Source: Saprospiraceae bacterium | GTDB taxonomy: Bacteria; Bacteroidota; Bacteroidia; Chitinophagales; Saprospiraceae | Reading direction: 5' to 3' | DNA: 64,000 nt | Assembly: GCA_020848695.1 (NCBI GenBank) | Contig: JADLHT010000014.1 | Location: forward strand, 1-64,000 | Part shown: one piece after another, positions 27,650-30,620 of the stretch | Layout of the letters: the number at the start of each line of letters is the position of its first letter | Position numbering within the stretch: position 1 is the stretch's first letter | Translations under genes and position numbers: made by a program | The notes under the pieces: generated by a model | What the model was told of the DNA's origin: nothing | The model's database searches: none | The model's input: only the letters and a program-made list of their open reading frames with translations

Positions 27650-29401
27650 ATGAAAACAATTGAATCCTCAATCCATCTTGGGGAAATAATACCCAATATT
27701 TCCATACTGCTTCAGCGAAATGCAGAGCTTTGGAAAGATCATAATGTTTTTACAGAGTATAAGAACGGAACCTATGTGTCTATCAAGTGGAAAGATTTTT
27801 ATAAAGATATTCAGAATATTGCTTCTAATTTGAAAAACCAAGGATTTAAGGAAGGAGATAAAATGATTATTTTTTCTCCAAATAAGTTGGAAATGCTTGA
27901 ACTTGAATTAGCTGTTATGTCTATGAAAGGAATTGTTGTTCCTCTATTTGCATACTTTCATCAAGAGACTGCAGAGTTATTAATCAAACATTCAGGTGCA
28001 AATTTTGCTGCGATTGATAATGAGATTCAATGGAATAGGATTAAGTATTTAAATCTTGAATTGGTAATTTCTTTTAACCCAAGTATTGAAATGGCTAGAA
28101 ACACATTACCATTCGTCGAACTGTTAAAATCTTCAGCTAATGACTCTGCATCTTTAACAATAGAAATAGATTCGGATTTTATATGTTTAAATATGTATAC
28201 TTCCGGAACAATGGGTACGCCAAAATGTGTTCAGCTAAGTCATAGAAATATTTTATCTCAACAAGCAGCATTAATAAAAATGTGGAATATTGATCATACT
28301 GATCGATTCCTTTCTTACCTGCCATGGCATCATAGCTTTGGTGGTATTTTTGAACTTTTCACTGCATTAAGTAATGGCGCAGAGATGATTCTTGAATCAA
28401 GTTATGGAAAGGATCCAACCGTTATCATGCAGCATTGGAAAAATAAAAAGCCAACTTTGTTTTTCAGTGTGCCAAAAGTTTATCAGGCATTGTATGAGCT
28501 CGCAAAGAAAAGCAAAGAAACTGAAGAAATATTTTTTCACTCAAATCTAAAATTCATTTTTACAGCTGCAGCATCTCTGCCACAAACGCTGTCTGATGAA
28601 TTTGAACGTCGAAATATTCCGGTAATTGAAGGATGGGGACTTACGGAAACGTCACCTTGTTGCACACTGACAGATCCTTCAAAAAAAAGAAAACCAGGAG
28701 TAGTTGGCTTTCCAATTCCCGGAGTTCAGATTGCATTCGCTCCGGATGGTGAAATTTTGGTGAAAGGGCCTAATGTAATGAAAGCTTATTATAACAATGC
28801 TGAAGCTAATCGTGGAATATTTACAGAAGATGGATGGTTTCGAACAGGAGATATTGGTGAGTATACAGAGAATGGTCTAAAACTAATTACCCGTAAAGAC
28901 CGAATATTCAAACTATCCAATGGAGAAAAAGTTATTCCCTCTGACTTGGAAAAACTGATCGAAGTTCAATGCCCATATGTATTACATGCACTTATAGCTG
29001 GAGAAGGTGAAGAATATCCTGTTGCCTTGCTTTTTCCAAATAAAAAATTGCTAGATGATCCTGATTATTTTGTCACTCTAGATGATGGATGTTTTTGTCC
29101 TCGAAGCCTGGAAGAATTAAGTCGCTGCCTTAAGGGATGTCTTCATGATGCCAATTGCTCTATTGGACAAAAATTTTCTAAAATCCAATCTGCTGTAATC
29201 ATTGATGATGAGCTTTCATTTGATAACGGCACGCTCACTTCATCCATGAAAGCATCACCAAAAAATATTCTTCAAGTGTATAAAGCACAGCTTAAAACTC
29301 TATACACTCCTGAGAGTAATGCTGAGGATGTAGTTTATATAATTCGTTTAGACGATCTTAATAAAATTCCTGGAAGAAAAATTAATGTAGATTATGTATA
29401 G
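27650..29401 (+). CDS. AMP-binding acyl/aryl-CoA ligase (long-chain acyl-CoA synthetase-like architecture)
   Basis: NMYTSGTMGTPKCVQLSHRNI (P-loop), GWGLTETSP, DGWFRTGDIGEYTENGLKLITRKDRIFKLSNGEKV. Confidence 0.9.
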   Translation: MKTIESSIHLGEIIPNISILLQRNAELWKDHNVFTEYKNGTYVSIKWKDFYKDIQNIASNLKNQGFKEGDKMIIFSPNKLEMLELELAVMSMKGIVVPLFAYFHQETAELLIKHSGANFAAIDNEIQWNRIKYLNLELVISFNPSIEMARNTLPFVELLKSSANDSASLTIEIDSDFICLNMYTSGTMGTPKCVQLSHRNILSQQAALIKMWNIDHTDRFLSYLPWHHSFGGIFELFTALSNGAEMILESSYGKDPTVIMQHWKNKKPTLFFSVPKVYQALYELAKKSKETEEIFFHSNLKFIFTAAASLPQTLSDEFERRNIPVIEGWGLTETSPCCTLTDPSKKRKPGVVGFPIPGVQIAFAPDGEILVKGPNVMKAYYNNAEANRGIFTEDGWFRTGDIGEYTENGLKLITRKDRIFKLSNGEKVIPSDLEKLIEVQCPYVLHALIAGEGEEYPVALLFPNKKLLDDPDYFVTLDDGCFCPRSLEELSRCLKGCLHDANCSIGQKFSKIQSAVIIDDELSFDNGTLTSSMKASPKNILQVYKAQLKTLYTPESNAEDVVYIIRLDDLNKIPGRKINVDYV

Positions 29402-30620
29402 TCTGGAATCAACATCCTTGTTAAAAAAGATAATGAAAGACTATTTTCAGTCCTTCAATGTATCCAAAAAAATTGCATGGTGCACAAGTGTTGGTCCGGC
29501 TGAATTATTAAGAAGTTTTGGTTTTCAAGTTTACTTTCCGGAAAATCATGGTGCTTTATTAGGAGCAACTCGTCTTGCCGGTGAAAATATTCCCGCTACG
29601 ATTAATCTTGGTTATTCCGGAGATATCTGTTCCTACCTTACAAGCGATATTGGAGCGTATTTAAACAAGCAGACACCTTTACTTGCACATTATGGCTTAA
29701 ATTCCATTCCCAAACCGGATCTAATCGTTTATAATACCAATCAGTGTAGAGAGGTTCAGGATTGGTTTAATTTCTATGCCCGTGAATTTAATTGTCCAAT
29801 TGTTGGAATTTTTTCCCCAAGGCATATTGATGAAATGAATCTAGAGATGGTAACTGCAGTTGCCGAGCAATTTAAAGCAATAATTCCTATCTGTGAGAAG
29901 ACCAGTGGGGTCGATTTTGATATTGACCGATTTAGTGAAGTCATAAGATTGAGTCGGGAATCAGCCGAACTGTGGAAATTAGTTTTGGATACAGGGAAAA
30001 ACTCTCCTTGTCCTTTAAGTTTTTTTGATGCTTCTATTCATATGGGTCCCATTGTTGTATTGCGCGGAACTAAGATTGCAATAGAATATTACCAGGTCTT
30101 ATTGAGAGAGCTTCAACATAAAATAAGTTTAAAACAAAGTCCCGTAATACAAGAAGACTCCCGTATTTATTGGGATGGAATGCCAATCTGGGGAAAATTA
30201 AGATCACTTTCAAATTTATTTGTTCAAAACAATTCCATGGTCGTAGCGTCAACATACTGCAGTAGTTGGATATTTGACAGCTTTGATGAAAACAGTCCAT
30301 TTGAAAGCTCTGCCTTTGCTTATACAAATATATTTATCAACAGGAGTGAAAATGCCAAGCTAAGATTGCTAAAGCAGTGGGTTGAAATGTTTCGAATCGA
30401 TGGGGTCATTTTTCATGATGCAAAAACATGTTTTAATAATTCCAACTCAAGATTTGGATTACCGCAGTTATTTCATGAGATAACAGATATTCCCGTATTA
30501 ATCATCGAAGGTGATTTGTGTGACCTTAGGTTTTACTCTGAAGGGCAGACCACTACAAAATTAGAGACATTCATTGAACAGCTTAAGTTTCAAAAAGTAT
30601 TGAATCAAAATGCAGGATAG
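29394..30620 (+). CDS. Additional 2-hydroxyacyl-CoA dehydratase / BcrB-like subunit
   Basis: 408 aa, same architecture as bcrB: IPATINLGYSGDICSYLTSDIGAYL, IVYNTNQCREVQDWF, DGVIFHDAKTCFNNSNS, IPVLIIEGDLCDLRFYSEGQTTTKLETFIEQL; conserved Cys positions retained. Confidence 0.85.
   Translation: MYSLESTSLLKKIMKDYFQSFNVSKKIAWCTSVGPAELLRSFGFQVYFPENHGALLGATRLAGENIPATINLGYSGDICSYLTSDIGAYLNKQTPLLAHYGLNSIPKPDLIVYNTNQCREVQDWFNFYAREFNCPIVGIFSPRHIDEMNLEMVTAVAEQFKAIIPICEKTSGVDFDIDRFSEVIRLSRESAELWKLVLDTGKNSPCPLSFFDASIHMGPIVVLRGTKIAIEYYQVLLRELQHKISLKQSPVIQEDSRIYWDGMPIWGKLRSLSNLFVQNNSMVVASTYCSSWIFDSFDENSPFESSAFAYTNIFINRSENAKLRLLKQWVEMFRIDGVIFHDAKTCFNNSNSRFGLPQLFHEITDIPVLIIEGDLCDLRFYSEGQTTTKLETFIEQLKFQKVLNQNAG

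Follow-up and report, generated by a model that had tools for sequence, protein, structure and literature searches.

A dehydratase-like HGD-D protein of one subunit type encoded beside its activase in a benzoyl-CoA operon of a Saprospiraceae bacterium

Four described systems are closest to the protein reported here, which is encoded in a 64,000-nucleotide stretch of a Saprospiraceae bacterium (Bacteroidota; assembly GCA_020848695.1, contig JADLHT010000014.1, positions 1 to 64,000 of the forward strand; hereafter, the window). In 2-hydroxyisocaproyl-CoA dehydratase HadBC (PDB 3o3m, 4eht), the alpha subunit HadB needs the beta subunit HadC and is served by one dedicated, homodimer-type activase, HadI. 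FldABC-I of Clostridium sporogenes leads from aryl-pyruvate via aryl-lactate and aryl-lactyl-CoA to cinnamoyl-CoA, using two dehydratase subunits, a CoA transferase and an activator. The double-cubane cluster protein (DCCP) and its partner DCCP-R (PDB 6eno, 7yyl) combine a single subunit type with one activase. Finally, the benzoyl-CoA reductases (BCRs) of class I (BcrCBAD, MbdONPQ and BzdNOPQ), members of the same superfamily, have a C/N partner subunit and a pair of unlike activases.

The gene in question, here called ORPH, is the open reading frame at positions 29394-30620 (+) of the window. It encodes a 408-aa HGD-D protein (Pfam, 194.6 bits; cut-off 28.4) and shares an operon with bcrCBAD. 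An earlier reading of the DNA alone (the original prediction) had described it as a BcrB-like orphan with three cluster cysteines and its own activator, and had offered three options: a dehydratase borrowing BcrC, a homodimer analogous to DCCP, or an alternative aryl-CoA reductase. The observation was confirmed and the overall interpretation partly supported. Judged by its sequence, ORPH falls in a widespread and so far unnamed branch of radical enzymes with iron-sulfur clusters, and the idea of a stray BCR subunit is rejected. The term dehydratase-like suits it best, yet a distinct beta subunit is missing at the gene level, and it would represent a new one-subunit variant.

Family placement, cluster ligands and predicted fold

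The best curated model for ORPH was HadB (190 bits; cut-off 750), followed by BcrB (TIGR02260, 154.9 bits), for which ORPH stayed below the equivalog cut-off of 486.55; the double-cubane model gave 53 bits against a cut-off of 350. In a tree of alpha (B/O) and beta (C/N) subunits, from which FldB/FldC and HgdAB sequences were left out, the ORPH orthologs formed one clade with 100/100 support on the alpha side, separate from HadB, BcrB plus MbdO, BzdO and several other paired alphas. The label "BcrB-like" is thus loose, and no orthology to HadB, BcrB/MbdO or BzdO was found. The activases linked to ORPH likewise formed a group of their own, with 100/97 support for their separation from all activases of paired enzymes, Bcr and DCCP; this tree included six reductase (KPR) rows as an isolated outgroup, of which the split is independent. 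Since both clades are set apart, ORPH and its own activase appear to travel as a pair.

Orthologs were aligned (n = 123, comprising 82 from the window's broad group and 41 mostly from Desulfobacterota). Residues C79 (motif GDICSYL; codon 29628-29630, +), C118 (NTNQCRE; 29745-29747, +) and C346 (AKTCFNN; 30429-30431, +) align with Cys95, Cys128 and Cys380 of BzdO, which are demonstrated cluster ligands (PMC11971306), as well as with the corresponding cysteines of BcrB and MbdO. All three, the cysteines named in the original prediction, were retained in 123/123 orthologs, and no loss of ligands was seen. Together with the HGD-D fold, they predict an open-site [4Fe-4S] cluster in ORPH.

The pocket is of the dehydratase alpha type. 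Residues S32 (codon 29487-29489, +) and E50 (29541-29543, +), both present in 123/123 orthologs, correspond to HadB Ser37 and Glu55, which we take to be catalytic; the BzdO equivalents are Ser44 (by motif) and Glu65. N51 is the equivalent of HadB Asn56. Whereas S32, E50, N51, W292 and H341 are identical in HadB, all of these except E50 differ in BcrB, and from ORPH to BcrB the pocket changes include S32 to V, V121 to F, W292 to G and N349 to F. Y81 and Y288 match BzdO Tyr97 and Tyr298.

Besides the ligands, C30 (codon 29481-29483, +), C289 (30258-30260, +), N349, M263 and S291 are invariant in the clade, C30 and C289 each being present in 123/123 orthologs. Cysteine occurs at the position of C30 in 1 of 24 paired alphas, and also in MbdO; at that of C289, which adjoins Y288, it is again found in 1 of 24 (T in 16), while N349 occurs in none of the 24. 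C289 aligns with the double-cubane ligand BzdN Cys263, a point of likeness to DCCP. Identity with DCCP itself was considered and rejected: ORPH is in register with the equivalents of BzdN Cys73, 100, 327 and 263 only, C30 is off by one from Cys36, and Cys293 is absent. The equivalents of Cys73, 100 and 327 are the three cysteines common to the whole superfamily, and the clade has five invariant cysteines against the six ligands that a double cubane requires.

An AlphaFold2 single-chain model of ORPH (pLDDT 89.1, pTM 0.89) was closest to HadB (TM-score 0.90; E 1e-25), followed by other alphas (0.86-0.89); the scores were 0.72-0.78 against DCCP and 0.70-0.72 against beta subunits. Sequence identity between ORPH and HadB is about 26%.

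Gene partners and link to the benzoyl-CoA pathway

Only three HGD-D proteins, BcrC, BcrB and ORPH, are encoded in the genome (3.18 Mb, rated as 100% complete), so that BcrB and BcrC are the only possible partners of ORPH in it. Among Desulfobacterota, an ORPH ortholog was found in 67 of 398 genomes. Neighbourhoods of 25 loci (10-20 kb fetched around each) were typed by tblastn; longest-ORF calling hid some genes in GC-rich loci. An ORPH-type activase was adjacent to ORPH in 24/25 loci, and a C-type subunit was found near it in 0/25, as against 11 of 12 control loci, which carry other HAD-type alphas and come from related genomes (Fisher p 1e-8). Outside bcr operons, ORPH has no C partner at the loci examined. 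Its gene content, a single subunit type with one type of activase, is that of DCCP and not that of an alpha-beta heterodimer or of a BCR with its own C/N subunit and two unlike activases.

Four genomes are informative at larger scale. G160 (Desulfomonilia, one 6.5-Mb contig) contains one DCCP-type protein, one B+C pair and ORPH; G347 (single contig, 4.46 Mb) contains DCCP-type proteins and ORPH; G212 (single contig, 4.24 Mb) contains DCCP-type proteins, ORPH and a short, 339-aa HGD-D protein; and in G409 ORPH is the only HGD-D protein found. An unpaired C-type subunit was found in none of the four, and a BcrC/HadC-type subunit was not found in G212, G347 or G409. Lone C-type subunits of Desulfomonile (L125/L136, L137) were considered as hidden ORPH partners and rejected; contig edges lie nearby, and the G160 counterpart adjoins its own B subunit.

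A further genome, G108, encodes an ORPH 65% identical to that of the window, in an operon without bcrCBAD, together with an Mbd-type reductase; the C-type subunit of the latter shares only 31% identity with BcrC. From these loci and genomes taken together, a beta subunit, either dedicated or borrowed, seems not to be required, and a probable homodimer is the simplest reading of the gene content. The Mbd-type (methylbenzoyl-CoA) reductase genes of G108 are located approximately 30 kb from the ORPH operon on the same contig (L139, L140).

ORPH genes of Desulfobacterota neighbour AMP- or ADP-forming CoA ligases. Also encoded nearby are a GlcD-type 2-hydroxyacid dehydrogenase (8/25 loci), a 2-oxoacid reductase (7/25), indolepyruvate:ferredoxin oxidoreductase (IOR; 6/25) and an ACT-pair protein (7/25); none of these four was found near the 12 control loci. 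The ring hydrolase Oah/BamA was detected in 58 of 67 genomes with ORPH and in 50 of 331 without it (odds ratio 36, p 6e-30, a statistic that ignores the kinship of genomes). As several genomes with ORPH are linked to the benzoyl-CoA pathway while lacking BcrB/BcrC-type subunits, it is this pathway that ORPH follows, and not the class I reductase.

G347, putatively Desulfococcus multivorans DSM 2059, would be an example in culture; around ORPH, at 2.79 Mb, its genes run from a TRAP transporter and two CoA ligases through ORPH, activase and reductase to an ACT-pair protein and IOR (the TRAP component was typed in L203, which was grouped with L195). In D. multivorans, clusters at 2.77 Mb encoding a TRAP system, CoA ligase, dehydrogenase, hydratase and thiolase are formed specifically on phenylacetate and phenylpyruvate, and IorA3B3 is phenylpyruvate-specific (PMC5109826). 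The organism grows on phenyllactate, and Dmul_C24850-70 were assigned to phenyllactate/phenylpyruvate conversion; how benzoyl-CoA is reached in this genome, which has no padEFGHI, was left open by the authors (PMC5109826). From the gene order, we infer that Dmul_C24850-70 correspond to ORPH, activase and reductase. The gap would be filled if phenyllactyl-CoA were dehydrated and the cinnamoyl-CoA formed then passed through beta-oxidation.

The activase fusion, the operon of the window and related loci

Directly 3' of ORPH, a fusion gene (30610-32469, +) encodes an ApbA/PanE-type 2-oxoacid reductase and a BcrAD_BadFG activase; as originally noted, the two genes overlap by exactly 11 bp (30610-30620). 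The reductase domain (fusion residues 8-312; 30631-31545, +) has conserved N111, K196, N200, S266 and E278, the residues of ketopantoate-type 2-oxoacid reductases, with roles presumably as in E. coli PanE. Its structure resembles those of D-mandelate dehydrogenase and ketopantoate reductase, whose fold yields (R)-2-hydroxyacids, the stereochemistry required by the dehydratases. The activase domain (residues 347-595; 31648-32394, +) carries both invariant cluster cysteines, C466 and C505, as in a dedicated activase with two such cysteines per monomer, and has a TM-score of 0.81-0.86 to HadI and HgdC. In the window's group, 64 loci have the reductase and activase as one fused gene and 15 as separate genes, so that the fusion probably derived from neighbouring genes.

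The gene directly 5' of ORPH encodes an AMP-forming acyl-CoA ligase (27650-29401, +), the end of which overlaps the start of ORPH by 8 bp. In many Bacteroidota loci an ADP-forming ligase takes its place at the same position, as was shown in L024 and L037. A stand-alone protein of about 155 aa, related to the C-terminal portion of the AMP-forming ligase, is encoded between ORPH and the fusion in loci with an ADP-forming upstream ligase (L037:11250-11714, L024:11230-11703 and similar Bacteroidota loci).

The surrounding operon, on the same strand, is that of the class I benzoyl-CoA pathway. It comprises bcrC (22774-23937; TIGR02263, above cut-off), bcrB (23972-25276; TIGR02260, above cut-off), a bcrA-like activase gene (25353-26783; TIGR02259, 439 bits, under the cut-off of 578) and the bcrD activase gene (26800-27639; TIGR02261, above cut-off), followed, beyond the fusion, by a thiolase gene (32450-33715; start inferred, ORF open from 32336), had for 6-hydroxycyclohex-1-ene-1-carbonyl-CoA dehydrogenase (33712-34776), oah for 6-oxocyclohex-1-ene-1-carbonyl-CoA ring hydrolase (34791-35888), a dch-like cyclohexadienoyl-CoA hydratase gene (35898-36665; TIGR03189 best model, below cut-off) and a 3-hydroxyacyl-CoA dehydrogenase/enoyl-CoA hydratase fusion gene (36678-38681). 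Genes for a 4-hydroxybenzoyl-CoA reductase-like enzyme (40867-44615; fused gamma and alpha, then beta) and its maturation complete the set. The 2Fe-2S (gamma) and Mo (alpha) subunits of this enzyme form one fused protein of 932 aa, the beta subunit still has a cysteine-rich insertion, and MocA-like and XdhC-like genes lie upstream. BcrA (476 aa) contains a long insertion: some 200 residues separate the N-terminal motif from the remaining activase domain. A 178-aa hemerythrin-like protein (22241-22777; judged by eye, with no NCBIfam match), the gene of which overlaps bcrC by 4 bp and has homologs upstream of bcrC in several related loci, may protect benzoyl-CoA reductase from oxygen.

Relatives were found in 158 stretches of public genomes, and results on loci of the window's group rest on the best 80 of these. 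Among them, ORPH relatives occur in Bacteroidota, Ignavibacteria (Ignavibacteriota), KSB1, Neomarinimicrobiota, Zixibacteria, Desulfomonile and one metagenome-assembled genome (MAG) labelled "archaeon"; the gene order bcrCBAD-ligase-ORPH-reductase-activase is mostly retained in the window's group. The "archaeon" MAG (G101; L092, L142) carries, on a single contig, an ORPH-reductase-activase-thiolase operon and a divergent BCR of class I, reflecting either a true archaeal host or mis-binning. In the class of Desulfomonile, other HAD-type alphas, mostly in B+C pairs, are about 31-37% identical to ORPH (L169, L172-L178, L182).

Proposed reaction and alternative explanations

ORPH is most readily explained as an ATP-activated radical (R)-2-hydroxyacyl-CoA dehydratase that is made up of a single subunit type, probably as a homodimer, is served by its own activase and would convert (R)-aryllactyl-CoA to cinnamoyl-CoA toward benzoyl-CoA; we give this reading a probability of roughly 0.6. 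The ATP-dependent dehydration of an (R)-2-hydroxyacyl-CoA is proposed by analogy. The reductase domain of the fusion would reduce an aromatic 2-oxoacid, phenylpyruvate or 4-hydroxyphenylpyruvate, to the (R)-2-hydroxyacid, of which the CoA ester would be made by the AMP- or ADP-forming ligase. With ATP and reduced ferredoxin, the activase domain would inject one electron into the [4Fe-4S] cluster on C79/C118/C346, and the open-site iron, with S32 and E50, would eliminate water by way of a ketyl radical, as in HadBC. Beta-oxidation of the resulting cinnamoyl-CoA or p-coumaroyl-CoA would give benzoyl-CoA or 4-hydroxybenzoyl-CoA, which would enter the ring-reduction pathway of the same operon. The route resembles that of Fld, likened here by description only, but would rely on a single type of dehydratase subunit, on a CoA ligase in place of the transferase and on a fused reductase-activase, and its product would be degraded to benzoyl-CoA.

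Each ORPH protomer would act as both active-site and electron-store subunit, with C289 as the candidate thiol for the latter role. The source of the fourth sulfur ligand of the published beta cluster is unclear (PMC11574389, PMC8473912), and C289 would therefore be an obvious candidate for a residue that may let one protomer take on the beta role. A more far-reaching proposal, tentative and, taken jointly, well short of an even chance, is that ORPH represents a new homodimeric class of 2-hydroxyacyl-CoA dehydratase. Either protomer could then be catalyst or electron store, switched by C289 capping the open iron, and in sulfate reducers without phenylglyoxylate dehydrogenase the enzyme would provide the step so far missing between phenylpyruvate and benzoyl-CoA, by way of phenyllactyl-CoA and cinnamoyl-CoA; phenylacetate would join the same route through indolepyruvate oxidoreductase acting in reverse.

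Several points weigh against the homodimeric aryllactyl-CoA dehydratase. Described dehydratases are alpha-beta heterodimers in which the electron is stored by the beta cluster (PMC11574389, PMC8473912), and no assay of an ORPH-clade enzyme was found in the literature searched. DCCP-type proteins are present in G160, G212 and G347, and G409 may be incomplete. The genome counts are phylogenetically non-independent, and Oah/BamA was not detected in nine genomes with ORPH. For D. multivorans, the authors favoured oxidative decarboxylation of phenylpyruvate to phenylacetyl-CoA (PMC5109826). The reductase might also make pantoate, as the genome contains panB (G000:C44:92235-93008) and, apart from the fusion, no clear member of the ApbA/PanE family. 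A last point against is that a BcrC-type subunit occurs in 49/50 genomes with ORPH in the window's group, so that ORPH and BcrC could pair there.

Such pairing would make ORPH the alpha subunit of a 2-hydroxyacyl-CoA dehydratase borrowing BcrC as beta, one BcrC serving two enzymes. ORPH is of the alpha type and the BcrC-type subunit, usually exactly one, is mostly encoded in the same operon, yet this is unlikely given the distant Mbd-type subunit and the absence of bcrCBAD from the operon in G108, the orthologs in G212, G347 and G409 without any BcrC/HadC-type subunit found, and the C-type subunit of G160 that adjoins its own B subunit. Of that option in the original prediction, the dehydratase chemistry is favoured by the HadB-like residues, the fold and the neighbours, while the borrowing is not; of the DCCP-like homodimer, the one-subunit, one-activase architecture is favoured and DCCP identity is contradicted by cysteine register, pocket type, fold and model scores.

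A one-subunit dehydratase for a non-aromatic 2-hydroxyacyl-CoA, of the isocaproyl, lactyl or glutaryl type, would agree with 2-hydroxyisocaproyl-CoA dehydratase being the closest structure and curated model, and with W at position 292 as in HadB. We regard it as quite unlikely, since ORPH tracks the benzoyl-CoA ring hydrolase, stands beside IOR and ACT-pair genes and, in the putative D. multivorans genome, adjoins a phenylpyruvate/phenylacetate-induced cluster of like make-up. The option of an alternative aryl-CoA reductase, or an accessory BCR subunit, acting on substituted benzoyl-CoA esters is disfavoured and appears very unlikely: the bcr operon, the strong pathway association, the superfamily and the three cluster cysteines are as it would predict, but the BcrB pocket is replaced at positions 32, 121, 292 and 349, the activase is a single one of the dehydratase type in place of a BcrA/D pair, the score with the BcrB model is low, and ORPH is kept next to 2-hydroxyacid genes in genomes without BcrB/BcrC.

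If ORPH is a natural one-subunit dehydratase, it would test whether chemistry and electron holding need to be divided between two unlike subunits. Through the proposed reaction, anaerobes could convert aromatic amino acids to benzoyl-CoA, and the reaction is a candidate for the step to benzoyl-CoA in D. multivorans, where padEFGHI are lacking. Were the reading true, phenylalanine-type compounds would be fed into benzoate breakdown without oxygen.

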